From NCBI GenBank assembly GCA_030789695.1, contig CM061130.1, positions 8,733,860 through 8,797,859 on the forward strand: DNA of 64,000 nucleotides, written 5' to 3'. Under the pieces are notes generated by a model that ran no database searches, was not told the DNA's origin, and saw only the letters and a program-made list of their open reading frames with translations. The DNA comes from Scilla litardierei. Lineage: Eukaryota > Streptophyta > Magnoliopsida > Asparagales > Asparagaceae. Position numbers and translations under genes: made by a program. Positions within the stretch are counted from its first letter, which is position 1, and each line of letters starts with the position of its first letter. This document shows, piece after piece, positions 1-60,043 of this stretch.

Positions 1-1160
1 GTCCATTGATATTGGAGCACTTCGTTCAGTTCTCCGATTTCCCTCATCTCGCCGATCTTCTTTCCTCTTGCGGCCTAATAGATTATCTTCGCCATGACCC
101 CAAGGCGAACCCTCACCCGTACCCCCGTCTCATCAAATTATTCTATGCGAATCGTGTCCGTGGTCAGTATGACGACACTCACTCCATTGAGACGACTATC
201 TTGGGGACACCTATTGTCCTCACGTCAGAAATCTTAGGGGAGTTGATTGGTGTGTCATCCTCTGGCCTTCTTCCAGCTGATATCTCTGTGGATGATATTT
301 CTGATCTTGACCAGTCGATGCTTGCCGAGATGTTCCATGTCATCCCTCCCGCCATGATTGGCGTCCCCTCGAAGTCTTTTAAGCCAAAAGCTTGGGTCTT
401 AAATCTTATCCTGAAGTCGTGCCTCCTTCCGAAGTACGGCTCATCTAGCTTACCCTCCCAGCCGTTCCTCAAGATGATCTACGCTCTCTTCATGGGGAGC
501 GAGATCAATTGGGCTCGTATCATCCTAGATAAGATGGACTCTTTTGAATGTATCCGAAAATCCACCAAGTCTGCTCACATTCCATATCCGTGCCTATTGA
601 CTCTCGTTTTTCGTCACTTCGGAGTCCCTCTCCCTCCCGATGACTAGCGTCCTCTTGGTCCTCCCCTGAATGCGACAGCAGTCAAGAAGTCTCTTGCAGC
701 GCTTCTTCACGTTCAGAGGACGACCCCTTCAGCTTCTGCTTCAGTTGCTCATGCTCCTTCTCCTACTCCGTCGCTCGCTGAGTTTGCAGTTTTCCTGTGA
801 CGTGTGGAGTCTCGTGTTTCTCGTTCCGAGGAGATGCTTGCTCGCATCTGCACTCACTTGGGCATTGAGGTTCCTCCGCCGGTTTCTGACGACGAGGAGA
901 TGGATGAGGCTGAGCTCCAGGAGCTTGTTGGATCTCCTGCTCGTGCCCCTGAGGGTACCTCTGCTCGTGCTGCTGCTGCTTCTGCCGGTGCTCCCGAGAG
1001 CACACCTACTGCCACCATTCCTTCGGTGGATGTTTCTGTTGGGGCTCCCGAGACCACTACCGTTGCCACTCTCCCATCAGTTGACACTCCGGTCGTTCCT
1101 GAGACCACCACATCTTCTGCAGAGCCTGCTGCTGCTACAGATCATCCCTCCGCCTCCTGA
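1..1160 (+). pseudogene. Env-like ORF of Sirevirus C1 (5'-truncated by window, two stops)
   Basis: This is the ORF after pol in Sireviruses, called env-like by position; its function is unknown. It reads in one frame from about position 6 to the stop at 1158-1160, but is broken by TAG at 645-647 and TGA at 798-800. At both sites the C2 copy has a sense codon (CAG and CGA). The visible part holds the conserved globular region with the FYANRVRGQYDD motif near 145-180, a short heptad-like helix near 800-870, and an Ala/Thr/Pro/Ser-rich tail containing APE-S/T-T repeats. No signal peptide or membrane segment is visible. The ORF ends 15 bp before the G1 insertion, so G1 did not disrupt it. Confidence 0.85.
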
Positions 1161-1170
1161 GCTTGCGTTG

Positions 1171-1175
1171 GAGGA
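1171..1175. repeat. Target site duplication of G1, left copy (GAGGA)
   Basis: GAGGA lies directly before the G1 LTR terminus TGACGTG and recurs at 11644-11648 after the other LTR. A 5-bp duplication is normal for gypsy integrases. The same GAGGA precedes G2 at 60039-60043. Confidence 0.93.
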
Positions 1176-2788
1176 TGACGTGCCCCCGGTTTGCGAGCCG
1201 CAAATGGCCAGGGGACCTGCGTGAGGGTTTAGATATTTGTAACTGCAAGCACACGGTGTTGTAGTGTGGCTTGGGGGTCGAACACAGGGAGGCTAGGATG
1301 TGCTTGTGTCAAAGAGGACCAAAATCACCCCGTGGGCGAGCTAGCCCAGATCGGATGATGGGTTGTCACGGTAAAGGAATGCAAGGTATAAACAATATGG
1401 AAATAAAACCCGGGACTTTGGTTTCCACTCCATCGAGCGACTCTCGCCGATACGGCCTACGGGTAGGATGGCGATCGGAATTAGGGTCTAATGGTGAGAC
1501 GTTGCCTCTAAAAGTGGTACCGGCATCCCATGGGCCCGATATTCCGGTCGGTGCCCAGGATGATACATCGGACTTTCCGGGTTCGATCAGTGGGCACTCC
1601 TGTGTCCATTAACACTGGTCAACTCCGGGAGCACTAAGCTCGCAACGATAACTCCCAACGTCTCATCCTGCCGCTCCCGCGCGCTAGGATTCGGCGTCTA
1701 CGCTAAGGGCGTGAGCTATGGCTAGGGAGTCAACCGCCAAGTTTATTCCCCCTTGGCCCAACGGTCAAAGGCGGTCTTTTTCCCGCCGATGACAATAAAA
1801 CACCCAGCGTAACCGTTAGATTCCTAATCCCTATCGATTTCCTAACCCTACGGACGCATCGGGAAGAGCCCCCGAAGGGGTTTCCGCCAAAATCCCAGAT
1901 TTGGGAACTGCTCACAAATATTCATTAAAAAGCGATCTAAACGAAAATGAACCGTTAAAATCATAATCAGACAATAGGAATGCAAAGGTAGTAAATCAAT
2001 TAAGATAATACTAAAGTTTTACAAAGATCTGAAAACTTACAAAAACTGGAAAATTACAGCCGTCATAAAATGAAGAAAACAGTAAAAAATAACCAACTCT
2101 CGAATCTGGGAAACATAGGGTTTTATTTTTAGAAAACGACATCACCCGATCGGTTGACAAGTCAACCGGTCGGGTGAGCCGCTTCACAAAATAACAGCGC
2201 AATGCGGGGGTTTCACCCGGTCAGTATGAACCGGTCGGTTGGAACTTGGTGCGGTCGGTTGGATCTTGGTGCCGACCGGTTGGATCTTGGAGCGGACCGG
2301 GTGAGGAGATCGGTTGGAGCTTCGAGTCTTGGCTGTTGAAATTCACCTACAGGTGAACTGATCGGGTGAAGGTCACCCGATCGGTTGGAAATCAGCTTCA
2401 AATTTCCAAAGACTTTGAGCTTTTGACCCGGTCACTAAACCGACCGGGTGACTTCTCGTGAGCTCCAAGCTGCGCCCGGGTGGTGTACGCGTGCATCACC
2501 CGATCGGTTGGAGATGACCAACCGACCGGGTGAGGGGCTGAAAGATGCAATCTTCGTCGTTTGACCCCCTGGATCACGCGTGACTCCTCCCGTTGCTCCA
2601 GGGACACATGATATCATCGTTTTACGCCCCAAATGCCAGCAAACTCCTGCAAAACACGGAAAATACGGAAAAGTGAAAGAAAACAAGAAAATACAAGAAA
2701 ATACGAGAAAACAAATAAAAGACGGCGGTAAATACGGAAAAACACGGAAGAAAACGCGCGTAAATATATGAAATATAAACGCACGTTA
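1176..2788 (-). repeat. 3' LTR of G1
   Basis: 1613-bp LTR bounded by TGACGTG on the left and CACGTTA on the right. The expected CACGTCA has mutated, so on the element strand the LTR opens with TA instead of TG. It matches 10484-11643 and the G2 LTR (60044-61657). It contains the hairpin array (2143-2535) and a decayed TATA box (TATTTTTAG on the plus strand near 2124, where the 5' LTR has TATTTATAG). Confidence 0.93.
2143..2535 (-). promoter_or_regulatory. Palindrome array in G1 3' LTR
   Basis: Repeated CACCCGATCGGTTG and CCGACCGGGTGA motifs. Neighbouring copies are inverted and form hairpins, for example CACCCGATCGGTTGAC then AA then a near-perfect complement at about 2143-2178. In the 5' LTR the same array stands 11 bp upstream of the TATA box. 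The same motif recurs in the internal pol-env spacer at 6136-6479. A role as transcription-factor sites or enhancer is inferred. Confidence 0.7.
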
Positions 2789-2802
2789 AAATCCCCCAAG
2801 CT
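2789..2802 (-). other. Polypurine tract of G1
   Basis: On the minus strand AGCTTGGGGGATTT abuts the 3' LTR. This is the expected primer site for plus-strand DNA synthesis. It is preceded by an inverted repeat around CCTCGAGG (about 2811-2830). Confidence 0.85.
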
Positions 2803-4512
2803 GAACTCTTCCTCGTCCTCGAGGAAGACGAGTGAGAGTAGGAGCTCGGAGGGAAAAATAGAGAGAAAGAGAGAAAAAGAAAACTCTATATCCTAGATCG
2901 CCCGTCAGGGCCAACAAAATAAAAAACGGCACACCAAGCAAGCCAATGCCAAATCACATCACTAAACCTAGGAATACGAGTCCAAATAAGTGCCGTAGGC
3001 CCACGCGGTGAAGCGCGAGTGAGTGTGGTCGTGCGCTAGCAGTCGGTGTCGCTATCTACGATGTGCAATAAAGCTTGATATACACAGACCCAGGAAATGA
3101 CCCAAATACTGATTCGAATTTGAAATTGCGGTGAATATTAGTTCAAGCATGCATGAGAAGAGTATAAGAATAGAAGCGTATCATGCATCGGGGACTCCAC
3201 AACTAGGGTTAAGGAAATCACACCACTATAGCCAAGATACTAGCTAAAAAGTTCCTAAGCCAAGTGTTTTCGGAACCGATGGGGGTTGAGATGATGTGGA
3301 GAAGAACACTCGGTACAAATTCTCGCCTTCCCTTTATTCTCGGCAAGTAGGAAAATATTCACACGAGAATTTTTTTTTGGGTTTTGGGCATTTGTATAGT
3401 TTGTTGTTTTTGTTTTTTTGGCTATACAAAATTTTTCTTTTCTTTTTGGGTTTTTCTTTTCTTTTCTCTTTTTTTTTGGATTTTTGGGTTTTTTTGGCTA
3501 TACACATGTGTACTCTCCCAAGTGGGAGAACGGTACACGACGAGGGGATTTGCACCAAGTAAAACAAAAAAGAAATCGGAATCTAAACACTTGGGCAAAG
3601 GAAACTATTCTCGCAATATATAGCATGGGCTAAATGGGTTATCCTAGTCCTTAATTGTGGAATCCCGAGACATGCGAAATGAAGCGTACGATATATATAG
3701 CATGCAGAAGAAGCAGACAGTAGAAATAAGTACCTCACATTCATATCGAAACATGATAATCTAGGGGTCATTCCTGGACAGGTATATAAAGTAAATCACA
3801 AAGTAGAAGCACACCACACGGTTAGGCACGACACATGACTCACAAAAAGCTAAGTGGACCCACGATGCGTGAAATGCAAGATGACTCGAAATCCTAGGGT
3901 TAGTGAATGTGATGCTAGGTGCTAGGTGTGTGTGATTTTGTGGCGATTCATCATAGGGTTCATCTCTAGGAGAAAGAGATAAAAAGAAGATAAGAAAAAA
4001 TAAAAACACAATGAAAATGACATAAAAACGAAAAAGAAAGACTCAAATGACGCACCAAGTGCGACTCCCCCAAGCTGAATCTTGCATTGCCCTCAATGCA
4101 ATAAGAGTGAATACGGGAGGGCAATGAAAATGGGGGGGGGGGGGGAATACGCACCGACACAAAAAGAAATGAAAAACGAGGAAAACACAAATACGAAACT
4201 GAAAATAAAAGAAAAATCAAAATCAAACCACATGACACAAAAAACGAAATAAAACCACACGACACGACAAAAAGCACACGACATGACACGAAAATGGGGA
4301 AAAAAAGCACACACACAAAAAGAAAATAAAACAAAACACGACAACACACCAAAATAGACGTCCCCCAAATTGGACATGACAATGCTTGCAATGAAATATG
4401 ATCGTGAAATGCAGAAATATGCGAGGGGGGGGGGGGGGGGGCAATCGGATTCGCTGGTACTAGAATGGTAGGGGGAGGGAGAGGAGGGTGGGGAATAGCG
4501 AATGAAAGAATC
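2803..4512 (-). other. Post-env non-coding region of G1 with PPT-like repeats
   Basis: No credible gene; the long frames here are T/F-rich low complexity. Two further PPT-like sites (minus AGCTTGGGGGAGT at 4064-4075, AATTTGGGGGA at 4360-4370) resemble the true PPT. The first is preceded by a perfect hairpin, TTGCATTG (4082-4089) paired with CAATGCAA (4094-4101). Homopolymer G runs lie at about 4131-4145 and 4427-4441, and a T-rich stretch at 3370-3500. The region is repeated in G2 (61658-63367) with shorter G runs. Confidence 0.75.
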
Positions 4513-5667
4513 CTAAGAGGATGAGGAGGGCGTGCCTACAGGGGAAGGAGGGGCGACAGGCTGGATCACGGGTGGATCGATATGTACCGGTGGGCTGTGG
4601 TGGATAAAGATTGTACCGGGCGGGCCGACAGTTGGGTGCCAATCGGGAGGATCCAAGGGTGGCAGATGTACTAATGGAGAATACCAAGGATCGGGGTAAA
4701 ACTCCCATGGCAGATGAGACGGGGGGTAGGGTAGCCGCAAAGGTGCTAAAGGTGGCAGGATCGCGAAAGGTGCGTAGGCGGGGCTATAGAGATAGACTGC
4801 ACGGTCTTCACCGAAGGGAGTGAGCATATTGATATCGATCAAGTAATCACGATCAATACGGCTACGTCCAGGCAAAATAGGGAGGTCGGGCGGCACTCTC
4901 AAAACACAGCTGACAATAAGAGTGATCATCCCACCGCAACAGATGGATCCAGAATTGGCGCGGCTACCAGCAAAAATTTCGTGGATGATCCAATGAGCGG
5001 CGTTTATGGGCATAGGGATGTGCCCGAGGATCCTGTCTTCGGACATGGCATAGAGGAAGAAAAGCTCATCCCTAGATACAGTGGACACATCCACGCGGGC
5101 GAAAACAGTGTTGGCGAGGATGCAATGGGCGAGGCGGTAACACGGGTGAATAATGTAGGAGGCAAGAGCCTCAGGTGGAAAGGCGGTGTACCGGGTAAAT
5201 CGTTGCCAAACACCATCAGCCCGAAATTGAGAGTAGATGTCAGTTCGATCGTGGGTGGAATGTTCAGTATTAAGATCAGGGTGACGGAGATTGAGGATAT
5301 TGTTCAACTCGATGAAACCCAGAGAAAAATCGCAGTTGAAAGCGCGGAAGGAGAAACCCCCGTCAAACACCTCGAGGGAACCGAGGAATTCAAGCGTGAG
5401 ATTTCGGTGTGTGAGAGCATGGATGTAAGAAAGGGTATGGCACCATATACAGTTGAAAATTCTGCCGACGCCGTTCGAAAGCCCTAGAGCTTCGAGTGTG
5501 GGGCGATCGGCAAAGAGTGTAGGTCGCATTGGGCGATGAAGTAGTGCTCGCAAACAGTCAGACTGCTCTTCCGTAGAAGGGTTTATGCCAAGGAAAGAGG
5601 GCGAAAAGGGGCCGTAGAGCGGATCACGGCGCGAAGATGAGGCAATCTCTTTCCCTTTCTTAGACAT
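4513..5667 (-). CDS. Env-like protein of Athila-type element G1 (intact ORF, 384 aa)
   Basis: Positional env-like ORF downstream of pol, related to the Athila ORF family; its molecular role is unknown. I chose the ATG at 5667, which opens a basic Ser-rich N-terminus (MSKKGKE...). The frame stays open to 5748, so a start 27 codons upstream is possible. The core at residues about 89-130 (LTLEFLGSLEVF through FIELNNIL) is the part typical of the family. The last 85 residues are Pro-rich with PP repeats and a Ser tail. No signal peptide or clear membrane helix is seen. Unlike the pol of the same element it has no stop or frameshift. It lies 448 nt downstream of an internal TATA box (6115-6122), which suggests its own transcript. 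Confidence 0.82.
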   Translation of the reverse strand: MSKKGKEIASSSRRDPLYGPFSPSFLGINPSTEEQSDCLRALLHRPMRPTLFADRPTLEALGLSNGVGRIFNCIWCHTLSYIHALTHRNLTLEFLGSLEVFDGGFSFRAFNCDFSLGFIELNNILNLRHPDLNTEHSTHDRTDIYSQFRADGVWQRFTRYTAFPPEALASYIIHPCYRLAHCILANTVFARVDVSTVSRDELFFLYAMSEDRILGHIPMPINAAHWIIHEIFAGSRANSGSICCGGMITLIVSCVLRVPPDLPILPGRSRIDRDYLIDINMLTPFGEDRAVYLYSPAYAPFAILPPLAPLRLPYPPSHLPWEFYPDPWYSPLVHLPPLDPPDWHPTVGPPGTIFIHHSPPVHIDPPVIQPVAPPSPVGTPSSSS

Positions 5668-6114
5668 GACGACTATGTGTGTGGCGAAAAGGAGAGTGGG
5701 AGCGTGCCTATGATGATTAAAAAGCAGGTGAAGCAGGTATAACACCAACTCAGGACATTACAGATAAGGTAAGAGATGTGTAGAGTGGAAAGGTGTTACC
5801 CATCAATGTAGCAAGATCAAGCTCCCGGGGGACTCGCGCAGTAGGAGGAAGCAATTCGGGAAGCCGCCGCTCGCTGATCCGACAAGAAACAGGTTTTCGA
5901 AAATTTTGGGGGCTAGGGTTAGGGTTTGGGTGTTTTGATGATGGAATGTTGATGATGGCAAGGTGGCGAGGGTGGGGAAGTATGGGAGTGAGTGGGGATG
6001 AGGGTTTAGGGGCAGTATGTTGGATGGGGGGGGGGTCGATTCGACAGTTGGAGGGTGTGTAACCGCGTGAAGGGGATTTTTGGGGGTCGGGTGGCGGTCA
6101 TCGTGCGGTAGGGG

Positions 6115-6479
6115 TATTTATAGGGGTGAAACTGTACCGATCGGGTGAGTTCTCACCCGATCGGGTGGACGAATTTCGAAAATTTCCTGTCGGCCAACAG
6201 CTACAGGTGAACTGATCGGGTGAAGGTCACCCGATCGGTTGACCGCATCCCAAATCTTTCCCGAGAACATGTGATATTTCACCCGGCCACTCACCCGATC
6301 GCGATAGTACTCAACCGATCGGTTAATGCGATCTCCAAATTTCCCGAAAGTTCAGCACTACCCACACGGTCAGCGACCCGGTCTCGGCTATTGTCACCCG
6401 GTCGGTTCGTTAGGTGACTGATTCGGCCATTCCGCTGATACGTCCAAACCGATCGGGTGAGGTCTCACCCGATCGGTTG
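6115..6479 (-). promoter_or_regulatory. Candidate internal promoter for the G1 env-like ORF
   Basis: Lies between pol (ends 6676) and env-like (starts 5667). On the minus strand an array of the LTR-type palindromes (6136-6479) is followed after 13 bp by TATAAATA (6115-6122). The 5' LTR has the same order and spacing: array, 11 bp, then TATAAATA at 11000-11007. Perfect hairpins include CCGATCGGGTGAG/CTCACCCGATCGG (about 6137-6164), and a second pair near 6450-6479. Promoter function is inferred from this copy of the LTR layout. Confidence 0.65.
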
Positions 6480-6675
6480 GGGTCTTGTTTCCTGCAAAAG
6501 ACCAAAAATCGCCTAAGTTTCACGACGGAAGTTGTTGCGGCTGGATTTATTTATAAAAATAGATAAAAATAAAGTAGAAAAAGTCCTAAAAAGCGAAGCA
6601 AAAGTTTAAAACATGGGTTGCCTCCCATGAAGCGCTTTTGTTTAACGTCGTTTAGCTCGACGCCTCTAGCGGTGG

Positions 6676-9600
6676 TCAATTAGGATCCGGAGGGTTAGAG
6701 GAAGAGTTGTCACTCGTTGGGGATCCGACCGGAGAGAATTCTGGTTCTCCAACCGCATAGTGTTTCAGACGCTGTCTGTTGACTTTAAACGGCTCATCCC
6801 TTCCCATTATCTCAATAGCCCCATGCGGGAAAACCTTGGTGACACGGAACGGTCCCGACCACCTTGACTTGAGTTTTCCAGGAAAGAGCTTCAGCTTTGA
6901 GTTGAATAGGAGAACTAAGTCCCCTTCTTTGAATTCCCTCTTCAAGATTCACTTATCGTGCCACCGCTTCAGCTTCTCCTTGTAGATCTTGGCGTTCTCA
7001 TAGGCATTGAGCCGGATTTCGTCGAGCTCGTTGAGTTGTAACTACCGGTGCCCCCCTACCTCCTTGGCGTCGAAGTTCAGATTCTTAATTGCCCAAAATG
7101 CCTTATGCTTCAATTCCACAGGAAGATGGCAGGCTTTCCCATAGACAAGCCGGTAGGGAGTCGTGCCGATCGGAGTTTTAAATGCCGTCCTGTAGGCCCA
7201 AAGCGCATCAGGAAGCTTTGATGACCAGTCCTTTCTAGAATTGGCCACCGTCTTTTCTAGTATGCTTTTAATCTCCCGGTTAGAGACTTCCGCCTGACCG
7301 CTGGTCTGCGGGTGGTAGGCACGCCCCACCCGGTGTTGTACCCCGTATTTTTTAAGAGGGCCTCGAATTTCTTCTCTATAAAGTGGCCCCCTCCGTCACT
7401 GATCAGGACACGGGGTACACAGAACCGCGGGAAGATGTTGCTTTTGAAGAACTTGGCCACCACTCTGGAATCATTGGTTGGACTGGCCATCGCTTCAACC
7501 CATTTCGACACGTAGTCCACAGCCACCAATATATACTGGTTCCCTGAGGAGGAAGGGAACGGTCCCATGAAGTCCACTCCCCATACATCAAAGATTTCTA
7601 CCTCCAGGATGTAGTGTTGAGGCATCTCATTCCTTTTGGAGATATTCCCCGATCTTTGGCATTTATCGCAGGCTTGGACATAAGCATGTGTGTCCTTGAA
7701 GAGTGTAGGCCAGTAGAATCCGCTTTGGAGAATTTTTGCGGTGGTCTTGTAGGTGCTCGCGTGCCCTCCACATTGCTGCCCGTGGCAGTGGGAAATGATG
7801 GAGGTCGCCTCAGTTTCAGGTATGCATCTTCGTATCACCCCATCATTGCAGGTTTTGTATAGGTGGGGGTCATCCCAATAAAATTTGCAGACCTCATGGA
7901 AAAATTTCTTCTTCTGCTGAAAGCTCACATTGTGGGGGACGATGGCACAAGCCAGATAATTTGCGATGTCGGCGTACCAGGGGGTCCAGGAGGAGGAGAC
8001 AGAGAAAAGATGCTCATCAGGGAGTGAATCATCGATCGGCGTAGCATTTAGATCAAGGGTAGGCATCCTGGACAGGTGATCGGCAACAACATTCTCTGCC
8101 CCCTTCTTGTCTCTGATTTCCAGGTCGAATTCCTGGAGGAGGAGAATCCATCTAATGAGTCGCGGCTTAGCTTCTTTCTTGCTCAATAGGTATTTAAGAG
8201 CCGCGTGATCTGTGTGCACGATCACCTTGGCACCAACGAGATATTGTCGGAACTTATCCATGGCGTAGATGACCGCTAGCAATTCTTTTTCCGTGGTAGT
8301 ATAATTTCTTTGGGCGGCATCAAGGGTTTTGCTCGTATAATATATGACATGAAGATTTTTATCCTTCCTCTGCCCCAAGACGGCACCAACCGCATAATCA
8401 CTAGCGTCACACATCAGCTCAAAGGGCAGATTCCAGTCCGGTGGCTGTATTATGGGCACGGAAATCAAAGCTTGCTTCAAAGTGCGGAAGGCCTCCATAC
8501 ACTCCTCGCTGAAGACGAAAGGCACGTCCTTCACGAGGAGTTGGGTCAGCGGCCTGGAAATCTTTGAGAAGTCTTTTATGAAGTGTCGATAAAATCCCGC
8601 ATGTCCTAAGAAACCACGGACTCCACGAAGATTGAGCGGTGGTGGAAGCTTTTTAATCACCTCAACTTTAGCCTTATCAACCTCAATTCCCCTCGAAGAG
8701 ATGACGTGCCCCAGCACAACTCCTTCTTGGACCATGAAGTGGCACTTCTCCCAGTTTAGGACTAATCCCTTTTCTTGACATCTCTCCAGGACTTTAGTTA
8801 GATTACTGAGGCACTAGTCAAACTTAGTTCCATAGACGGAGAAGTCGTCCATGAAAACCTCCATGATGTCCTGGGAGTAGTCGGAGAAGATAGCGGACAT
8901 GAGTGTTTGGAATGTAGCAGGGGCGTTACAAAGTCCGAACGTCATTCTTCTATAGGCATATGCCCAGAATGGGCAAGTGAAAGTCGTCTTCTCCTGGTCA
9001 TCGTTATGAATAGGGATCTGAAGAAATCCTGAATACCCGTCCATGAAACAGAAATAATTATGCTTCGCCAGTCTCTCGAGCATCTGGTCAATAAAGGGGA
9101 GAGGGTAATGATCCTTCCTCGTTGCCTTGGTCAGCTTTCTATAGTCAATGCACATCCTGTACCCCGTGACGGTCCTCGTTGGTATTAGCTCGTTCTTCTC
9201 GTTGCGAACCACCGTCATTCCTCCTTTCTTGGGTACGACGTGCACCGGGCTAACCCAGTGACTATCGGAGATAGGGTATATAATACCGGCATGTAGAAGC
9301 CTAACAATCTCATTTTTTACAACTTCCATCATTATGGGATTTAGCCTCCGCTGTGGCTCAATCGAGGAGGCTTGCTCATCTTCAAGCAGAATTCTGTGTG
9401 AGCAGAGGCCTAAGCTAACCCCTTTTAAATCCTCAATTGTATATCCGAAAACTCCTTTAAACCTTTTTAAAACACCAAGAAGTTTGGTCATTTGGTCTTC
9501 AGGCAGTGAAGAGTTCACTATGACCGGAAGGGTCGAGCCAGCCCCCAAATATTCATACTTTAGCCCGGGGGTAACTCTTTCATCTCAACTTCATGAGGCC

Positions 9601-10204
9601 CCGACGCATACTTTTCAAGCTGAGCATCCTCAAGGGAAAGGAGTTCTTCGTGGATTTCTTGGAAGCCAGCATCCAGAATCTCACTCCAAGCCGCGGTTCC
9701 GTATGGCAAAGTTTTGCAAGGTATTGTGGGAACGATCGAGGAAGGCACTGTGTTTCTTTCAAGCTCATAATAATTGTCTGGGAAGAAGGCTTCTAAGTGA
9801 AAACAGGTTTCAACTGTCGATAGTTCCCCACAACTGTTTCTAGCTTCCTCATTGTCCAAAGATCTGAGATGCTCGATAGTAGTCTGCAAGGAATAGATCG
9901 GTTCCTGTCCAACGTAGCCCACAGACTCAGCCTGATGGTTCTCCTGACATAACTCCGCGAACAACTCTTCTTCACTAAATTCGGGACTAGGAATGTCGAT
10001 ATATGCCACTTCGCCATGAGGAAAGAAGGTTGCCGTGGCAAGGTGCTCCAGCGTATCTCGATATCTCCTCTGATTTTCCACGGCGGCAGACAGGAGGGAA
10101 AGTATATTCGAAGTATTCAGGGATTCCGCTAAACTTCGTGCTAAACAGCGGATATGGTGTGAGTGATCCCAGATGTCTCCTGAAACTGCATGCAACATCC
10201 TCAT
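6676..10204 (-). pseudogene. Gypsy pol remnant of G1 (linker, RT, RNase H, INT)
   Basis: Athila-type pol reading right to left. 10204-9560 is the region upstream of RT ending in MKELPPG. RT follows (about 9548-8640), with the VPKKGG and YRKLTKATRKDHYPLPF motifs and catalytic FMDD at 8844-8855. RNase H is at about 8500-8090 (TDHAALKYL). INT has a zinc-binding [14 protein letters not shown] and a later SDGGGHF. Breaks: TAG at 8814-8816, a frameshift near 7325 just before the third INT catalytic region ([10 protein letters not shown]), and a stop near 7040. The C-terminal INT tail ends at 6676. Gag and the protease motif are absent. It cannot make a working polyprotein. Confidence 0.9.
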
Positions 10205-10458
10205 CGTGGGGCAAAGAACCTATACGAAAGGAGAGAGAGAACTGCACAAGTAGCAAACACGTCAAAAGCACGGGTTGCATAAACGGGAACCGAAAGTAGC
10301 GATGGTGGCACGTCGATTCAGTCAATTAGTACTATAAAATTGCTATCTACAATATGTACAAGTGAAATTGAAAAGTGTAGAGTGCGATAATTATCGCGAG
10401 GTAGGGATAAGTGCTAGACACTAGGGTTCATGAGATCCTAAAATAACAAGCACGTTGC

Positions 10459-10477
10459 CTCCCTGGCAACGACGCCA
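10459..10477 (-). other. Primer binding site of G1 (Asp-tRNA type, decayed)
   Basis: Minus strand TGGCGTCGTTGCCAGGGAG, six bases from the LTR end. It resembles the TGGCGCCGTTGCCGGGGA site of Athila-like elements, complementary to the 3' end of plant tRNA-Asp, with two changes. Confidence 0.8.
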
Positions 10478-10483
10478 TAAACT

Positions 10484-11643
10484 TGACGTGCCCCCGGTTT
10501 GCGAGCCGTAAATGGCCGGGGGACCCACGTGAGGGTTTAGATATTTGTAACCGCAAGCGCACGGTGTTGTAGTGTGGCTTGGGGGTCGAACACAGGGAGG
10601 CTAGGATGTGCTTGTGTCAAAGAGGACCAAAATCACCCCGTGGGCGAGCTAGCCCAGATCGGATGATGGGTTGTCACGGTAAAGGAATGCAAGGTATAAA
10701 CAATATGGAAATAATACCCGGGACTTTGGTTTCCACTCCATCGAGCGACTCTCACCGATACGGCCTACGGGTAGGATGGCGATCGGAATTTGGGTCTAAT
10801 GGTGAGACGTTGCCTCTAAAAGTGGTACCGTTAAAATCATAATCAGACAATAGGAATGCAAAGGTAGTAAAGCAATTAAGATAATACTAAAGTTTTACAA
10901 AGATCTGAAAACTTACAAAAACTGGAAAATTACAGCCGTCATAAAATGAAGAAAACAGTAAAAAATAACCAACTCCCGAATCTGGGAAACCTAGGGTTCT
11001 ATTTATAGAAAACGACATCACCCGATCGGTTGACAAGTCAACCGGTCGGGTGAGCCGCTTCACAAAATAACAGCGCAATGCGGGGGTTTCACCCGGTCAG
11101 TATGAACCGGTCGGTTGGAACTTGGTGCGGTCGGTTGGATCTTGGAGCGGACCGGGTGAGGAGATCGGTTGGAGCTTCGAGTCTTGGCTGTTGAAATTCA
11201 CCTACAGGTGAACCGATCGGGTGAAGGTCACCCGATCGGTTGGAAATCAGCTTCGAATTTCCAGAGACTTTGAGCTTTTGACCCGGTCACTGAACCGACC
11301 GGGTGACTTCTCGTGAGCTCCAAGCTGCGCCCGGGTGGTGCACGCGTGCATCACCCGATCGGTTGGAGATGACCAACCGACCGGGTGAGGGGCTGAAAGA
11401 TGCAATCTTCGTCGTTTGACCCCCTGGATCACGCGTGACGCCTCCCGTTGCTCCGGGGACACATGATATCATTGTTTTACACCCCAAATGCCAGCAAACT
11501 CCTGCAAAACACGGAAAATACAGAAAAGTGAAAGAAAACAAGAAAATACAAGAAAACACGAGAAAACAAATAAAAGACGACGGTAAATACGGAAAAACAC
11601 GGAAGAAAACGCGCATAAATATATGAAATATAAACGCACGTCA
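10484..11643 (-). repeat. 5' LTR of G1 (internal deletion)
   Basis: 1160-bp LTR, TGACGTG to CACGTCA. Compared with the 3' LTR it lacks 432 bp (equivalent of about 1523-1954) between two ACCG tetramers, plus one about 21-bp repeat unit in the array. It holds a TATA box (TATAAATA, minus, 11000-11007) and the palindrome array 11018-11400. Confidence 0.93.
11000..11400 (-). promoter_or_regulatory. LTR promoter of G1: palindrome array plus TATA box
   Basis: Array of CACCCGATCGGTTG/CCGACCGGGTGA motifs (11018-11400) followed on the minus strand by CTATAAATAG. This is the standard place for the genomic RNA promoter in U3. Confidence 0.75.
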
Positions 11644-12560: not shown

Positions 12561-14281
12561 TGTTGAGTATTGATTCCCCAGATTTGGTTTTGATGATGAA
12601 CAAACATAAATATCGTGAACTAACTCTTTGTGAGCGCAGTTATGGAGATCGTCGCCAAATTTCTATGAACATCAAAAGCGACGTCTCAAGACTTCTCAAA
12701 GCGCGTGATTGTGTGCTTGATGCTTCGTTGAAGCTCAAGGACCATTATTGAAGTCAAGAAGATTCGATTGAAGCTTTTGAAGACGGTTCGTCAAGTTTTA
12801 TTTATTGTCTTCTAGCTTCTTTTCGTAGAATGTTAAGCCTTGAGTAGGTCTTACGTTTTAATCTTCATAACGCTCATATCATTAGAGCTAGGATCATATT
12901 AGAAGCCCATAGAATCTTTCCCGAAGCTTAACGCTTCTTATCGCGGCTTCTTGTGCATCTTAGTTGGTTCAAGAAGAAGAACCAACCGACTAGATGGCAA
13001 TCTTGTCGGTCGGCAATCCTTCTTGAACCGACTAGATCTCCTAACTCATTTCAGCCTAGACACTGTTTATCAATTTGTCGGTCCAAGAAGGTTCACCGAC
13101 CGACTAGTTGTCAAACTAGTCGGTTAGGAATCCTTCTTAGACCGACTAGTTGAGCTTTCATTTTCCAGCCTAACTCACTGTTTACAGTTAGTCGGTCAAA
13201 GAACATCGACCGACCGACTAGTTATGAAACTAGTCGGTTGGAATTTGCTCTTAAACCGACTAGCTGTCTTTGGATTCAGCCACTTTGATTTCATCTCTTA
13301 GTCGGTCAAAGAACACTCACCGACCGACTCGTTGTGAAACTAGTCGGTTGGCAAGTCTTCTTAGACCGACTAGTTCTTTATGTCTGAACTTTCTCTTTTG
13401 GCTGTTCTCCAGTTAGTCGGTTCATGTTGAATCACCGACCGACTAGTTGAGAAACTAGTCGGTCAGTGATCCTTCTTTGACCGACTAGACTGCTTCAAAA
13501 TAGAGCCGTTGGAGCATTAAATGCCACGATTTTTGCTCTCTCTTTCCTCTATCCTATATTTACTTGAAGGGCTTCTTGCTAAGCATTCAAGGCTGATATT
13601 TATTGCATTTTAGAGAATCAAAGAGAAGAGTTAATTATCATTTCCAAGCTCATTCATTTCTCAAGAATCTCTCTCTCACTCTTATTTCCAAAGAGAGATT
13701 CTCATTGATTGTGAGCCACTCAAGCCAAGAGCTTGATCCAACGTCACCAACATCTTCCTAGCCTCCCATTGCTGGTCAACATCTTAGAGCTAGGGTTTGG
13801 TGCCTTCTTCTTTCCCCAAAATCCTTCTTGCCCTAACTCGTAAGTTTTACTCAAGGCATAGGGTTTTGTGGTAAGCATTTATTATTTCATTTACATTGCT
13901 ATTGCAAGTTTTACTCTCGGTTGTGAGAGTTGTGTGTGATCCTGGTTTGTGGGAGTCACATTTTCATTTGTGTATGATTTGATCTTGTAGAGGTTTTCTA
14001 CAAGTATTTCATAGTGCAAATTTGAGTTAGAGGTTCCTAACTCAAGTATCCGGAGGGGATCCGGGTGTTTGGGACGTAGGATCACCGGAAACAAGTCGGG
14101 GAGACTTGGGTGGATCCAAACCCGTTATATCGTTTGTTTGCGATTGTATTTTATTGTTGTCTATTTTCATTTCCGCATTGTTGGTTGAGTTTGCAAGATA
14201 ATTAGGAATTATCTTCTTAATTATTTTAAAGTACTATTCACCCCCCTCTAGTACTTGTGTAGTAGCTATCAGGGCATTACA
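12561..14281 (+). repeat. 3' LTR of Sirevirus C1
   Basis: 1721 bp from TGTTGAGTATTG to GGCATTACA. About 97% like the C2 5' LTR (50548-52266) by eye. Contains the CCGACTAG/CTAGTCGG array (12964-13490) and TATATTTA at 13555-13562. Confidence 0.93.
12964..13562 (+). promoter_or_regulatory. LTR promoter of C1: five-unit hairpin array plus TATA-like box
   Basis: Five units of about 105-110 bp, each an imperfect palindrome built on ACCGACTAGTT and AACTAGTCGGT with arms of roughly 35 nt. TATATTTA follows about 65 bp downstream. The same motif occurs in the pol-env spacer of C2 and A. Confidence 0.7.
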
Positions 14282-14286
14282 ATACT
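14282..14286. repeat. Target site duplication ATACT, right side of element C
   Basis: Follows the C1 3' LTR. The partner ATACT stands before the C2 5' LTR at 50543-50547, more than 36 kb away. Confidence 0.88.
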
Positions 14287-14740
14287 AACTTTTTTTTTTC
14301 ATTCCAACATGAATTAGCAACTCATCCACCCACTCCTAAGAGGAAAACAAAGCATGCACAATTGGCCAAATCCAATCCAATTAAAAACTACACCATTCAT
14401 CCTAACTCATGCAATTACTTATACCAAACTTTTCCCAAATTATCTCAAAGAGAGTATCACAACATATAAAATAGCTTCATACATGGTATATTAACATTTG
14501 AATCCAAATTGGAAAAGAAATGAAAACGTGCCAATCAAACATCGAGAAGTTGATACCAAAATGATAATCCGAAAAAATTGCATGGAATTAAAGCATGTAG
14601 GGACTACATAAAGCAAGCGGCGTAAGGATAAGGAGGCCAAATATGATATGCAATGAAGATCAATGGGTGATGGCGAAATGGAGGTATCTCAAAAAAAAAT
14701 TTAGCTCAAAATCCTAACAAACCTAAATATTCTAACACTC

Positions 14741-14774
14741 TCCCCCCAACTTAAAATAAGCATTGTCCTCAATG
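14741..14774 (-). other. Athila-type motif: CATTG/CAATG hairpin and purine tract in G3
   Basis: Minus strand reads CATTGAGGACAATG (stem CATTG/CAATG, loop AGGA), then AAGTTGGGGGGAG 14 nt later. G1 carries the same pair near 4065-4100. Confidence 0.65.
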
Positions 14775-14863
14775 TTGGAAGAGTATTAGATCTCACAAAA
14801 GATCCTAGAAAAGAAAAAGAAAAGCATACGAAAGCAATAAAATAAAATATTTATTTATTTACA

Positions 14864-16539
14864 CTATTGGAAAGAACACACCGTGGCAAAAGGCGGATCT
14901 CGAATGTATAACGGTGGTGGCAACTGCTCGATCATATCATTTTGCTCCTCCGCAAGCTGCTTTGGAGCTAGGCCTCCACCGACCTCCTTGGATTCCAGCA
15001 ATGCAACTCCAAGCATCTCCTTGGGATAATATATGTCATGTGGGAGACGAGCTGCATCAATCCAAGTCATGTCCTCATGAGCTGCATCAATCCAAGTCAT
15101 GTCCTCATGCCCTGCAAAAGCATTCCAAAATGGGTCGTCAAAACAAATAAAAGAATTTAAATGCAATGGACGTCAATCTGAAACAAATGTATATGGAAGT
15201 GAAAATTTGGTTTCAGAAATGCAAGGCATGAGATGGTGGAAACTTCCCTGAATAATGGTGCTAGGTGTGGCATAACACGCTGCCTCAGGAGGAGGGAGAA
15301 GCGGCTGCAGAGAGAAAACTGGAGTAGGAGGGAGATCGGGCTCAATATATACCATCTCGCAATCCCCGTCACTATCCTCTTCCTCGACATCAACATCAAT
15401 AATCTCTGCCGCACTCCCCACAAGTGGTAACTGCTCCTGACAAATCTCCTCGATGACTGGCAAGTGCGCATCCCGAGGCGAGGGAAGTGACATCTGTGAC
15501 AGGACTAGAGGTAGACTCGTCTTGGGCAAATCCAAGCACGCATCATCCTCGTCATCCCGGAAATAGTTCATCTCAGTCGTCCTCCCTAAGTACTCAATCG
15601 CCTCAACCTGTGAAGCTAACTCTGAAGTGGATTGTGGCTCAGGCCCCATGGTGTCCTCGATCTGCTCTCAGCCATCATGCACATCCGCTTCATCCTCAAC
15701 CTCAAAGTGAAAATGCATCGTGTCACCGTCGTGGTCGACACGCACTCCATCATCTGTCTCCTTCGACTCCTCAAAATATATTCTGTCAGTATCCTCTACC
15801 TGGCTCTCATGCAACCCATCCTTCTGCTCTGCTCTGTATCCCATGGGGTCGCAAGAAAAAGAGCCCAAAGGTGGCTCCTCAAACTGACACTGGACCTGTT
15901 GCTCTGCATCCTAAAATGGAACCAAGGAGTGGCCATCATCGTCATATCCAAGTGACGGCTCTCCAGATGGCACAGTCTGCTCCCACTCTGCAAGGTCCCT
16001 CAGGTACAACCATGAATCCTCGGTCGAATAATCAAAGAACTCCCCACTGCAACTCATCTGCACAAAATCCCGCCCAAATGGCGATAATCCGGTGTATAAG
16101 ATCTGCAGAAGATGATCCTCGTGAAAGCTCTGGTGTGGGCACGTAAGCACCAAATCAGTGAACCTCTGCCAAGCCTGATAGTAGGCCTCCCACTAAGCCT
16201 GGATAAAGCTCGCTATATGCTCCATGGCCTGCCGCCCCTGTACCTGCTCCAAAAACATGGGCAAAAACACTCGGAGAAATTCAGCCTGAAACGACAACCA
16301 AGTAAAATGTGAGTCCAGAGACAAAGAATCAAACCAAAGTCTAGCGTCATCTTGTAAAGAAGAGGGAAAAAATCTAAAGTATATGCAATCATCATCAATA
16401 TTCCCACCAAGACATGAAAACATCCACTCTTCAAATTTTTTATATGTAAATGAGGGTTCTCCCACTCCGAGCCATGAAAGTATGGCAGAAGTGGGATATC
16501 CTCCAAATCAATGTCGGAAAAGTCTGAAGGTGATGACAT
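14864..16539 (-). pseudogene. Athila-like gag remnant of G3
   Basis: Begins at 16539 (MSSPSDFSDIDLEDI). After a frameshift near 16440 it shows a retrotransposon gag core with DDARLWFDSL (about 16330) and a WEAYYQAWQRFTDLVLTCPH stretch after a stop at 16193. Further stops occur near 15911 and 15668. Downstream an acidic segment (VDVEEEDSDGDCE) and a tail with a duplicated HEDMTWIDAA follow, ending at 14864. No zinc knuckle and no pol motif follow. Gag would form the particle. This copy is dead, and whether the parent tail was coding is uncertain. Confidence 0.75.
15049..15108 (-). repeat. 30-bp direct tandem duplication in the G3 gag tail
   Basis: Two adjacent 30-bp copies starting at 15049 and 15079. 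The in-frame length duplicates ten residues. Confidence 0.9.
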
Positions 16540-16691
16540 GTTTTTTAAAAAAATTTCAAAGTAAATGAAAATAAATAACCAAAAGACTCAATAAGTGGAA
16601 ACTAAATAAACGGAAAGACACACACTAAGAGATAGAAGTATCAAACTAAAGCTTTCAAAATCAATCAAAAATTGCTAATAACAGAAACCGT

Positions 16692-16711
16692 TGTCCCCGG
16701 CAACGGCGCCA
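16692..16711 (-). other. Primer binding site of G3 (Asp-tRNA type)
   Basis: Minus strand TGGCGCCGTTGCCGGGGACA, six bases inside the LTR end. An intact Athila-type PBS. Confidence 0.88.
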
Positions 16712-16717
16712 ATTGGT

Positions 16718-18229
16718 TGACCGTGAGACGTGCACAATCCAAGTAGGATGCACACGTTCACCTCCCAAGCGTAGGAGTGTCAATGTAATAAAAATAACTG
16801 GTGAGTACCGGGTCGGATCACAGGGACAAGTCGTTTTATGTTCACAAATTTGATGGATAAAGAAAAATAAAGTGTTTCACAACTAACTCAACTAACGGTG
16901 GATGGAAGGGTGTGGGAAAAAGTGGTGAAAACTAAAATCCTAATCTGGGTAGGGTTGGAAAGCCAAATGGGATTTAAGATTGATAGGCGAGGAGAATGGG
17001 TTGTGGGTTCATTAAGATTGGCGTTAATTAAGCTCTAATTGCCGCATATAACTCAATTGGTCATCCGGCTAAGGAAGCCCAATCGGAAAGTTTAGCTTTC
17101 AAGAACACGAAATTTTTCAATAGGGATGGACGTATGATCGGAGCACTAATCAAATTAAGATCATGGTATTTTCTCAAATTGTGCCCTCTCGGGTCTTAGC
17201 CAATAAAATTGTGCCCTAATTACACATCCAACATTAGCAATGAAAATGGGCAAGAGGGAATTAGGGCTAAAATTAACATCCAACTCAATTAATCACAACC
17301 CAAACCATTTACACTACTCAATCATCATGAAATAAACGATTGAATTTTCATTCACAACTAATTCAAATTCATTACAAATTGTGAGATGCAAAAATACAAA
17401 AGGGGAGAGGAAAAATTTCACCCAAGATCCCCCAAATGAGTCTTCCCTTCCAAATTAGCACCTCCACCAAGCTTCTCCACCATCCATGGCCTCCAAGCCT
17501 AACCCTAGCCCTAAGGGGGAAGAAGAACCCCTTAGAACCCTAAAAAACTGCTGCTGTCCGAGAGACTGAAAAAAAGAACTCCGCCTCCAAAAAACGCTCC
17601 CAGGGCAAGTATAAGTCATTGCGGGTCGGGTTTACTGCGCCCGACCCGCCGGCAGCTAACGCGCGCCTGTTCTGCATAAATGGAGCGGGGCGGGCCGGGT
17701 CGGACCCCAGCCCGTATGCCATCTGCCCGCTCGAAGAGCGGGCGGGTGTGAAATCTGCTCGCTCGACGAGCGGGCAGGCTGAGAAGCCCGCCTGTCGATA
17801 CAAGCGGGCCGGCCGCTGCTGGGCCGGCCCGCATAGAAAAAAACAATTTTTTTAAATGAAACGGCGGCCTGAAACGCGGGCCGCCCCGCATGGGCTTTTT
17901 ATTAACTTTTTTTTGTTTTGTTTTTTTTATAATTACCAGAAACTCCTAGAAATGCTTCTTAGGCTCCAAAAAATCCCCAAAATTAGCTCCAATCTCCAAA
18001 AAAAATTTGGAAAAATTCCAGAAAACCCAGAAAAATTCCAGAAGTACCTGAAAAATAAGAGGAGCAAAAATTAGTCCATAAAAACCACATTTTATGTATA
18101 AACTAGAGATAGGCTTAAATAAATCACGATATCACAAATACACCCGTATTAAGTCACAATTAACATGATATACACATAAAATGCCCAGAAATGGGGGGGG
18201 GGGGAATATGCAATTTATATCCCGAATCA
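16718..18229 (-). repeat. 5' LTR of G3
   Basis: 1512 bp. On the minus strand it opens TGATTCGGG and closes CACGGTCA beside the PBS. Its 17731-18229 part matches 49465-49938. Contains a GC-rich palindrome array and a TATA-like box. Confidence 0.88.
17606..17890 (-). promoter_or_regulatory. GC-rich palindrome array and TATA-like box in G3 LTR
   Basis: Motifs such as GCCCGCTCGAAGAGCGGGC, GCTCGACGAGC and GGGCCGGCCC form short hairpins (17621-17890). CTTATACTTG follows on the minus strand (17606-17615). Same order as in the other LTR families but with a different, much more GC-rich motif. Confidence 0.6.
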
Positions 18230-19022
18230 CCCTCTTACACAGTGCATCAATCGACTATGTTTTGTTCAACAGTCGACTGTCGAATGTGTAAATTCTATCC
18301 GTCGTCATTTTCTCCACGGATTTCAAAGGGTGTTTTGGGGATTCTGGTTGGGGGTTTTGGGGAACCTATAAAGAGTGCTCCTTTTGTTCCATTGAGGGGT
18401 TACTCAACTATTCAAGCATTTCATTTTCTTGATCAAAGCTCTCAAATCCAAAAGCCCTAGAATTCCAATCTTTTTCTTCTCTTGCTCTCTAACCTAGAAT
18501 CAAAGTGTTATCTTCTAGGCAATTGGTGGTGACAAGAGAAAGTGCTTTTCTCGCTTGCAAAAGAGACCTCAACACACAACACACTTGCTCCTTCAAGTTC
18601 TACTTCAAGGCATATGTGATTATAAGTGTTGTTATTTCAATATTTCATATTTTTCGTTATTAGATTAACTCTTGGTTTGTGAGAGTGGTTTGGTTGCTCC
18701 CAAGTTGTGGGAGTCAAGGACATCGAGTGTATTTCGATTTCACTTGTAGGGTTGCTACTAGTGGGGTTTTAAGGAAACATCAAGTTAGAGTTCTAACTTG
18801 AGTATCCGAGGGTATCCGGGTGGAAGGGATATATGATTACCGGGAACAAGTCGGGAGTTGACTTGGGTAATCTGAACCCTTGAAACATCCTTGTGTTAGC
18901 ATTGTTTCAATTTAGGATTTATTTACATTCCGCATTAATCGTTGGTTGGGAATTTAATTTGGTATAACTATCATTTTAAATTGCATAAACACTATTCAAC
19001 CACCATTCTAGTGTTTTCCTTA
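18230..19022 (+). repeat. 5' LTR of B, 3' part only
   Basis: Matches 44135-44942. TATAAAGA at 18367-18374. The LTR end and the first PBS bases are missing: after CCTTA the sequence continues TATCAAAGC, the rest of a Met-type PBS. Confidence 0.82.
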
Positions 19023-19030
19023 TCAAAGCG

Positions 19031-24405: not shown

Positions 24406-24673
24406 GGAGTTCATACTTTCATGTTATATCATGTTTGAACTTATATCATCATTTTACTTCTCTTGTTTTGATGAACTATATGTTTCTCATATATTTTCTT
24501 AAGAGATGTATTTGAGATTTTGATGATTTCGCTTGTTTGGATTAATTTAAATTTGTACGTTAATCTATAATATTTTGATATTGATTTCTTGATTAGATTT
24601 GTGTTAAAGTATAGGTCATAGGGTGAGTTGTCTCAATCCTCTGGATTTAAACCTCATTGTGCATTTTTGGACC

Positions 24674-25080
24674 AGGACAGACGACTGTCATTCCTTCGAC
24701 AGTCGCCTACCCAACTAAATCTCTCTAACTGGAGACTGAATTTTTTGCACAGGCGATTGATGGACAATTTTCAATCCACTGTCCCTGCAACAGGCGACGC
24801 CTGTCCAAATCTTGAGATGTCTCTGTTTTATCAACACATTTTTTGATTCTCTATCAGACAACTGTTGTATAAGTTACAGTCGACTGTCTCTCTGACAGGC
24901 GACTGTGAGTTACTCAACAGGCGACTGTCTGTCAACCTAGGCTGATCTCTATCCAATTGACGAGTCGACTCATGATTGTACTTCAGTCGACTGTCAACTT
25001 CTGTGGCGGTTCATTAACTCGATCTGAGCCGTCGATCTGTCGATCCAACGGCCCAGATTCTTTTGACACCATCTTATAAT
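24674..25080 (+). promoter_or_regulatory. Pol-env spacer of B with LTR-type palindromes
   Basis: 24406-25315 contains no gene. CAGTCGACTGT, ACAGGCGACTG and related motifs (24674-24995), the signature of the B LTR array (43418-44187), recur here. A TATA-like CTTATAATC follows at about 25073. The env-like ATG is at 25316. Promoter role inferred. Confidence 0.55.
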
Positions 25081-26601: not shown

Positions 26602-28344
26602 TGTTGAGTATTGGACTCCCCGGATTTGGTTTTGGATGATGAACAAACATAAATATATCGTGAACTAACTCTTTGTGAGCGCAGTTATGGAGATCGTCGC
26701 CAAACTTCTATGAATATCAAAAGCGACGTCTCGAGACTTCTCAAAGCGCGTGATCGTATGCCTAAAGCTTTGTTGAAGTTTATGGACCATTATTGAAGTC
26801 ATGAAGATTCGATTGAAGCTTTTGAAGATGGTTCATCAAAGTTTATTTATTGTCTTCTAGCTTCATTTTCGTAGAATGTTAAGCCTTGAGTAGGTCTTAC
26901 GTTTTAATCTTCATAACGCTCATATCTTAGAGCTAGGATCTTTGTGGAAGTCCATACGAACTTTCCCGAAGCTTCGCGCTTCGATTCGCGACTTCTTGTG
27001 CATGTGAGTTGGTTCAAGAAGAAGAACCAACCGACTAGATGGTGATCTAGTCGGTCGGCAATGCTTCTTGGACCGACTAGTTTGCCTCCTTCAATTCATA
27101 GCTCTTTACTGTTTACAGTTAGTCGGTCTACGTTGAATCACCGATCGACTAGTTGGTGAACTAGTCGGTCAGTGATCCTTCTTAGACCGACTAGTTGAGC
27201 CTCTACTGTACATGCCTAGTTATTGTTTATCGTTAGTCGGTCTATGTACATTTGGCGACCGACTAGTTGATGAACTAGTCGGTCAACATTTGTTCTTGGA
27301 CCGACTAATTCAATTTGTTCTCAGACTATTTGTTTTATCTCTTAGTCGGTCTAAGTTCACTCACCGACCGACTAGTTGTGAAACTAGTCGGTTGGCAAGT
27401 GTTCTTGGACCGACTAGTTCTTTAAGTCTGAAACTTCATCTATTCACTGTTCACCTCTTAGTCGGTTTATGTTGTTTCACCGACCGACTAGTTGATGAAC
27501 TAGTCGGTCAGTGGTTGTTCTTTGACCGACTAGTTTGGTTCAGAATAGAGCCGTTGGAGCATTAAATGCCACGATTTTTGCTCTCTCTTTCCTCTATCCT
27601 ATAAATACTTGGAGTGCTGCATTCATTGCACTCGAGGCTGATTTTAAGAGAAGTTTAGAGATCAAAAGAGAAGCATTCAATCTCAATCAAAGCTCATTCA
27701 TTTCTAATCTTGAATCTCTCCCTCACTCTTATTTCAAAAGAGAGATTCATTGATTGTGAGCCTTTCAAGCCAAGTGCTTGATTCTAGGTCACCAACATCC
27801 ACCTAGGACTCCATTGCTGGTCATCTACTTGGAGCTAGGGTTTGGTGCCCTTTCATCTTCCCCAAAATCCGTTTTGCCCTAAATCGTAAGTTTACTCAAG
27901 GCATAGGATTTTGTCGGTAAGAATTTCTATTTCAATTTACATTGATATTGTAAGTGTTTCACTCTCGGTTGTGAGAGTTTGTTTGTGATCCCGGGTTGTG
28001 GGAGTCACATTTCGATTTGTGTATGATTTGATCTTGTAGAGGTTTTCTACAAGAATTTCATAGTGCAAATCTTGAGTTAGGGTTTCTAACTCAAGTATCC
28101 GGAGGGGATCCGGGTGGTTGGGACGTAGGATCACCGGGAACAAGTCGGGGAGATTTGGGTGGATCCGAACCCGTTAAATTGCTTGTTTACGATTGTTTTC
28201 TTTGTTGTCTAATATTTACATTTCCGCATTTTCCGCATTGTTTGGTAGAGTTTGCAAGATAATTAGGAATTATCTTCTTAATTATTTTAAAGTACTATTC
28301 ACCCCCCCTCTAGTACTTGTGCAGTAGCTTAGCAGGGCATTACA
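26602..28344 (+). repeat. 5' LTR of A
   Basis: TGTTGAG to CATTACA. Array 27008-27537; TATAAATA at 27600-27607. Confidence 0.96.
27008..27607 (+). promoter_or_regulatory. LTR promoter of A: five hairpin units plus TATA box
   Basis: About 110-bp units of ACCGACTAGTT/AACTAGTCGGT palindromes end about 62 bp before TATAAATA. Each unit can fold into a hairpin with about 35-nt arms. Confidence 0.72.
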
Positions 28345-60028: not shown

Positions 60029-60043
60029 GCTTGTGTTGGAGGA

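Follow-up and report, generated by a model that had tools for sequence, protein, structure and literature searches.

Arrays of LTR-type palindromes ahead of the env-like genes of an Athila-type element and three Sirevirus-type elements: a candidate internal promoter

In the available parts of two papers, the expression route and the function of plant env-like genes are stated to be open (PMC2829016, PMC3414828). The spacer between pol and the env-like gene of the retrotransposon G1 raises the question of whether such a gene might be transcribed from an internal promoter that reuses the upstream elements of the long terminal repeat (LTR), as an earlier note on this DNA had proposed. The whole stretch that was analysed, hereafter the window, is 64 kb of plant DNA filled with nested LTR retrotransposons. 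The features discussed below are collected in Table 1.

Table 1. Positions of the G1 element, the Sirevirus-type elements S1 to S3, and their palindrome arrays in the window.
Feature	Positions	Strand	Remarks
G1	1176-11643	minus	5-bp target duplication GAGGA
G1 5' LTR	10484-11643	minus	without ~430 bp found in the 3' LTR
G1 3' LTR	1176-2788	minus	array 2143-2532, 12 motif matches; TAAAAATA in place of TATAAATA
G1 primer-binding site TGGCGTCGTTGCC	10465-10477	minus	6 nt from LTR end
G1 broken pol	7257-9548	minus	reverse transcriptase 8814-9548; RNase H and integrase 7257-8735; separate ORFs
G1 env-like ORF	4513-5667	minus	384 aa from first ATG at 5667
G1 pol-env spacer array	6136-6479	minus	13 ACCGATCGGGTG matches, at most 2 mismatches
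Putative internal env TATA box TATAAATA	6115-6122	minus	13 nt past last spacer palindrome
G1 5' LTR palindrome array	11019-11387	minus	12 motif matches
G1 5' LTR TATAAATA	11000-11007	minus	10-11 nt past array
Putative G1 env leader	5668-6090	minus	65% C+T, 2 upstream ATGs; start inferred ~30 nt after TATA
S1 pol-env spacer	34003-34201	plus	two hairpin units 113 bp apart, TAGTCGGT core; env ATG 34535
S2 pol-env spacer	57927-58125	plus	two units of own LTR type; env ATG 58459
S3 pol-env spacer	24670-24993	plus	CAGTCGACTG/CAGGCGACTG motifs; env ATG 25316
S1 5' LTR array	26997-27535	plus	five units, 109-116 bp spacing; 3' LTR copy 37425-37963
S2 5' LTR array	50937-51475	plus	five units
LTR of other S2 copy	12561-14281		array 12952-13490
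LTR array assigned to S3	43410-44190	plus	CAGTCGACTG type

The G1 element and its pol-env spacer

The G1 element presents reverse transcriptase, RNase H, and integrase in the gypsy domain order, with the env-like ORF between pol and the 3' LTR. Read from 5748, the ORF at 4513-5748 matches the ATHILA ORF-1 family (Pfam ID PF03078) with an E value of 2e-9, and on the basis of the domain order and this match we classify G1, which is degenerate, as an Athila-type (Ty3/gypsy) element. For a third ORF (9560-10204) no Pfam match was obtained, and the named entries among the 120 similarity matches listed for G1 are plant proteins. The description of the env-like ORF as the only intact gene of the element agrees with our results, pol being split into separate ORFs and no other G1 gene being found undamaged; its first ATG lies 448 nt downstream of the spacer TATA box (5667 versus 6115), as had been stated. 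The primer-binding site TGGCGTCGTTGCC may be of the tRNA-Asp type. Calypso and Diaspora are described, in the available part of the source, as having a tRNA-Asp primer-binding site 5 bp from the LTR (PMC1142308).

A Copia/Sirevirus-type element carries G1 as an insertion in its env-like ORF, and the interrupted ORF before G1 matches PF20167 and shares 79% identity with the env region of S1. Positions 1-5145 and 58868-64000 are 97.2% identical in the self-alignment of the window, in which alignments shorter than 60 bp were dropped from a total of 215. A second G1 copy occupies the same insertion site in a Sirevirus-type env, which suggests that the two nested elements were duplicated together, for example by a tandem segmental duplication with a period of ~58.9 kb. 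The ~430 bp missing from the G1 5' LTR are present in the 3' LTR and in the second copy (1523-1950 versus 10827-10830). The two alignments overlap by 4 nt where they meet, which points to a deletion at microhomology. Between the G1 env and the 3' LTR, two extra polypurine-tract-like sequences occur on the minus strand (4066-4095 and ~4362), which are reminiscent of the multiple polypurine tracts of Sireviruses.

By eye, five palindrome clusters can be read on the minus strand between 6479 and 6136. When both strands of the 64 kb are searched for the motif ACCGATCGGGTG with up to two mismatches, 48 matches are obtained, 13 in the spacer and 35 in the three G1 LTR copies (12 each in the 3' and 5' LTRs and 11 in that of the second copy), and none elsewhere. 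The claim that the spacer carries the palindromes of the G1 LTR thus stands for the motif, which is common to both and confined to them, but the two arrays are only partly collinear. In a pairwise blastn comparison the spacer and the LTR align at 71% identity over 156 nt (E value ~1e-19 to 1e-20); within this stretch, 41 nt match the 3' LTR exactly. The collinearity would be accounted for if template switching or gene conversion had brought a piece of the LTR into the spacer, where it was retained as a functionless by-product. We hold such neutral copying to be improbable: beyond the 156 nt, the best matches between spacer and LTR are short and do not keep the LTR order, and further evidence against it comes from the other elements described below.

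On the strand of the env-like ORF, TATAAATA follows both the 5' LTR array and the spacer array at the distances given in the earlier note (there 11 and 13 nt, respectively), and the second G1 copy reads TATAAATA at this place as the 5' LTR does. A further exact TATAAATA lies upstream of the spacer array, at 6555-6548. The minus strand of the 64 kb holds six exact occurrences, so that ~0.003 would be expected in any given 30-nt stretch. The richest in CpG of 102 300-bp windows of G1 also falls in the spacer (28 CpG, at 6174), and spacer windows make up four of the top nine.

In our judgment the G1 spacer, with an open env-like ORF downstream of it, probably serves as an internal promoter from which Pol II transcribes env, using the LTR's own upstream elements. 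The palindromic upstream elements specific to the G1 family recur ahead of a second TATA box before env, and env transcription would start near 6090 on the minus strand. Because the LTR palindromes recur ahead of this second TATA box, we infer that the genomic RNA and the env mRNA would be co-regulated, both answering to the binding of the same DNA-binding factor(s).

Paired arrays in the Sirevirus-type elements

Three further elements in the window, S1, S2, and S3, are assigned to the Copia/Sirevirus type by their copia domains, env-like ORFs, and LTR arrays. S1 has a copia-type reverse transcriptase domain, RVT_2, S2 a copia-type gag, and S3 the gag_pre-integrs and Pol_BBD domains. ORFs matching PF20167 follow pol in S1, where the match is below the Pfam cut-off, and in S2; the env-like ORF of S3 shows a weak match to the same family (E value of 0.006). 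The arrays of these elements are of two other motif types and lie always between pol and env. The hairpin units in the S1 spacer belong to S1's own LTR type, and the CAGTCGACTG/CAGGCGACTG motifs of the S3 spacer match those of the LTR assigned to S3. Because this assignment is based on the 91.6% identity between the S3 5' LTR remnant (18202-19023) and positions 44107-44927, the assigned LTR may be a close copy rather than part of the same insertion. S1 and S2 are sister families, and each array matches the other's spacer; S3 shares its motif with S4, and both of their arrays match the S3 spacer.

We counted the 8-mers of the five LTR arrays (G1 and S1 to S4) in 200-bp windows across four internal regions, S4 contributing its LTR array, as its internal region lies outside the window, and took 100 dinucleotide shuffles as the baseline. 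The peak of 8-mers shared with the element's own LTR array falls in the pol-env spacer in all four elements tested, with 55 in G1 (shuffle maximum 17), 60 in S1 (16), 54 in S2 (18), and 38 in S3 (20). The windows above the shuffle maximum, which are 5 of 75 in G1 (starts 5995-6395, all overlapping the spacer), 4 of 85 in S1 (33870-34170), 3 of 76 in S2 (57790-57990), and 3 of 74 in S3 (24630-24830), all overlap or adjoin the element's own spacer. Elsewhere, the highest counts are 9 in G1, 10 in S1, 13 in S2, and 15 in S3, those of S2 and S3 again adjoining the spacer. That counts above the shuffle maximum are confined to the spacer and its borders speaks against neutral copying.

Across the families, the G1 array gives peaks of 10, 10, and 11 in S1, S2, and S3, within the shuffle maxima of 14, 14, and 13, and the arrays of S1, S2, S3, and S4 give peaks of 8, 12, 19, and 7 in G1, within the maxima of 14, 19, 20, and 17. 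The total counts, as opposed to the peaks, weaken the picture of family-matched arrays: the total for S3's own array, at 249, is not above the shuffle maximum of 249, and the totals of the S1 and S2 arrays in S3 are above the shuffles (170 versus 164 and 213 versus 183, respectively) without forming a peak.

The same paired placement of the array, with other motifs, is therefore found in three Sirevirus-type elements, and this shared arrangement supports the reading of the G1 spacer as an internal env promoter. For neutral copying, an array at the same place in three further elements is unexpected. A tree of 24 S1/S2 hairpin units, 20 from LTRs and 4 from spacers, sets the four spacer units apart from all LTR units as a single clade (support 96/93), and therefore they were not recently copied from the LTRs. 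The difference between spacer and LTR units is 6% in the columns of the octamer core (TAGTCGGT/ACCGACTA) compared to 52% in the other columns, a contrast that is inflated because the core columns were chosen from the consensus. The S1/S2 spacer units are an old, separate lineage with conserved cores, so that any copying would be old and yet the cores were kept, which again speaks against a functionless by-product.

Two simpler marks of the spacers were tried and rejected. Perfect inverted repeats (arms of 10, gap of at most 20) number 11 in G1, 11 in S1, 2 in S2, and 0 in S3, and are not a general mark. The DRE-like sequence RCCGAC is absent from the S3 and S4 LTR arrays and from the S3 spacer, and does not qualify as a common host-factor site.

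Positions 14285-18230 hold a further gypsy-like element, which has its primer site, TGGCGCCGTTGCC, at 16699 (minus strand). Two of its ORFs were scanned and gave no Pfam match. Its LTR has an apparent GC-rich palindrome cluster near 17620-17870, and a part of the element recurs at 49464-49939.

Env leaders, splice-like sequences, and folding

The putative env leaders of G1, S1, S2, and S3 have a C+T content of 65-67%, and the distance from the array to the ATG is 333 nt in S1, 332 nt in S2, and ~322 nt in S3, the limits of the arrays being set by eye. For G1, S1, and S2, the number of upstream ATGs is not significantly below expectation (2, 1, and 1 versus 3.1, 3.3, and 3.3 expected), whereas the S3 leader has none versus 3.5 expected (nominal P of 0.02); depletion of upstream ATGs as proof of a leader thus fails for the first three elements. 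In the S1 and S2 spacers we saw no exact TATAAATA and no other TATA box, and the only TATA-like sequence in the S3 spacer is CTTATAATC. The leaders of S1, S2, and S3 contain a donor-like TAGGTRTC, read by eye at 34402, 58325, and 25255, which might hint at an intron in the leader of the env mRNA.

The proposal of an internal env promoter stands as the best reading of the G1 anatomy, and S1, S2, and S3 share the layout, but the earlier note did not mention a splice-acceptor-like sequence close to the G1 spacer array. By eye, TTTTTGGTCTTTTGCAG, which ends at 6492, 13 nt before the spacer array, resembles a plant 3' splice site, and because it precedes the array, some weight must be given to an alternative in which env is expressed, as in retroviruses, from a spliced RNA initiated in the LTR, the spacer array lying in its leader with a structural or silencing-related role. 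The splice-acceptor-like TTTTGCAGG occurs five times in the window, always on the minus strand (first bases 6499, 2654, 11509, 61523, and 15119), namely, upstream of the arrays in the three G1 LTR copies and the spacer, and at 15119 in another element. Splicing of the Bagy-2 env-like RNA has been reported and splice acceptors have been predicted for Athila, according to the available parts of the literature. We nevertheless regard a spliced env mRNA as unlikely. It leaves the LTR motifs and the TATA box in the spacer unexplained, as well as the corresponding position of the arrays in S1, S2, and S3, and a leader beginning at the 6492 acceptor would hold six upstream ATGs versus two from a start at ~6090.

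The arrays might also act as RNA, with long foldbacks in the spacer and the 3' U3 of the genomic RNA serving in packaging or export or as a Dicer substrate. The G1 spacer (z of -7.6 as RNA), the G1 LTR array (z of -8.2), and the S1 spacer (z of -10.8) fold far beyond shuffled sequences, but the dyads fold about equally well with DNA parameters (z of -7.0). The covariation test counted the 22 distinct of the 24 S1/S2 units, identical rows being dropped. Two measures are above all 500 shuffles, namely, the score for the whole-unit hairpin (0.155 versus 0.114) and the number of cells in which both sides changed (32 versus 20.9), a result that related sequences can give without any structure, whereas the pairs changed on both sides (9 versus 9.3) and the further pair types (22 versus 23.8) show no excess over the shuffles. 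A foldback scan of 852 150-bp windows placed two S1 and two S2 spacer windows in the top 60 but no window of the G1 or S3 spacer, and the scan was therefore rejected as proof of a special structure in G1. As an RNA role also leaves the TATA box unexplained, we see little prospect for it as the main function of the array.

Relation to known systems and implications

The closest known parallel to the proposed internal promoter is found in Sireviruses, whose RM boxes, according to the available parts of the description, are palindromic and element-specific and occur in many copies before the TATA box of the LTR (Bousios et al. 2010, PMC2829016). In the same account, nine Sireviruses with ENV have extra RM copies in the linker, 77 of 79 upstream of ENV, and four RM-bearing Sireviruses without ENV have no linker copies. 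The authors there take RM to support an internal env promoter, a suggestion for which Peterson-Burch and Voytas 2002 are cited, without conclusively identifying the promoter. G1 has 12 palindromic matches in each of its 5' and 3' LTRs, where RM requires at least eight boxes before the TATA box; in its 5' LTR the TATA box comes 10-11 nt after the array, and its spacer has 13 extra copies just upstream of env. The CpG-rich G1 spacer also resembles the CpG islands of Sireviruses, as far as these are described in the available text (PMC2829016).

G1 differs from these elements in several respects. The RM core is CGG-CCG, whereas the G1 monomer has CCG-AT-CGG, with CGG...CCG contained in the longer dyads. 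A clear TATA box follows the spacer array in G1, unlike in the description of the Sirevirus RM. RM is called Sirevirus-specific and absent from the classic Ty1/copia elements compared, again in the available parts of PMC2829016, and its hosts are Ty1/copia elements, whereas G1 is assigned to Ty3/gypsy. G1 thus seems to work like the RM system but is no Sirevirus, because of its gypsy domain order.

Within Athila, an "ENV ORF promoter" of Athila6A, with transcription start sites said to be defined, is reported in a 2016 paper (PMC4977677). It resembles the proposal for G1 in that the promoter is internal, lies before env, and belongs to an Athila element; the available part of that paper mentions no LTR-shared motifs or palindromes for Athila. 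Bagy-2 and SIRE1 also have an env-like gene downstream of pol, but the expression routes described in the available parts of the sources differ, with splicing in Bagy-2 and stop-codon suppression in SIRE1 (PMC2829016, PMC3414828, PMC7264820). In general, env-like genes are stated to be transcribed from the 5' LTR in the accessible portion of one of these accounts (PMC7264820).

The idea of an internal env promoter is partly anticipated by the promoter suggested for Sireviruses and the one reported for Athila6A, as far as the available parts of these accounts go, and the novelty claimed earlier holds for the reuse of an LTR array before env in an Athila/gypsy element. A literature search, which covered few subscription journals, found no such reuse in Athila or another gypsy element. 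The only new points are the occurrence in an Athila/gypsy element and the presence, side by side in one window, of pairs that are specific to each family and matched within it. Spumaviruses have a second, internal promoter, and one virus-encoded factor activates both it and the LTR. They are animal retroviruses, whereas G1 is a plant element for which such a factor is hypothetical.

The comparison of arrays among Athila families covered the G1 family, which has arrays, and one other family, represented by a plant Athila-like element in two bacterial genome assemblies (L001, NZ_QPKJ02000021.1, and L002, NZ_JABGCL010000066.1), which apparently are contaminated with plant DNA. The two sequences are 99.6% identical over 9 kb and were therefore counted as one family; ORFs of 2001 and 1998 aa, respectively, extend over the pol match. 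The suggested search of other Athila families could thus be followed in this one family, which has no array between pol and the polypurine tract. The 2.9 kb after pol contain no perfect inverted repeat with 10-nt arms. Of the repeats in L001, 20 of the 45 direct families and 25 of the 33 inverted pairs were considered, and of those in L002, 20 of 41 and 18 of 18, respectively. No sense ORF longer than 133 aa was found after pol and no LTR was recognised, so that this family neither supports nor refutes the proposal. In the searches for relatives, the G1 env-like ORF had none at an E value of 0.001 and the G1 pol none in viral contigs in two scans. In genome contigs, the search with the single pol protein gave no relatives and that with an alignment gave three, including L003 in a bacterial MAG, which may be plant contamination too. 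Phages gave no match and plasmids gave three remote ones.

As the motif varies between families and agrees within each, whatever reads it must follow these changes, be it a factor encoded by the element or a host factor chosen separately in each family. The three unrelated motif types, each shared by the LTR and the spacer of its own family, speak against a single conserved host factor that would recognise every array. A far-reaching extension, which we put forward as highly speculative, is that env-bearing plant LTR elements of two superfamilies form a two-promoter regulon with private operators and an element-encoded trans-factor, possibly the env-like protein itself. The motif would then change in concert at the LTR and the env site as families diverge. 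The four Sireviruses described with LTR boxes but without an ENV gene speak against the env-like protein as the trans-factor, on the available parts of that description (PMC2829016). If Athila elements and Sireviruses both place LTR motifs before env, this would indicate selection for LTR-matched env transcription in both superfamilies.
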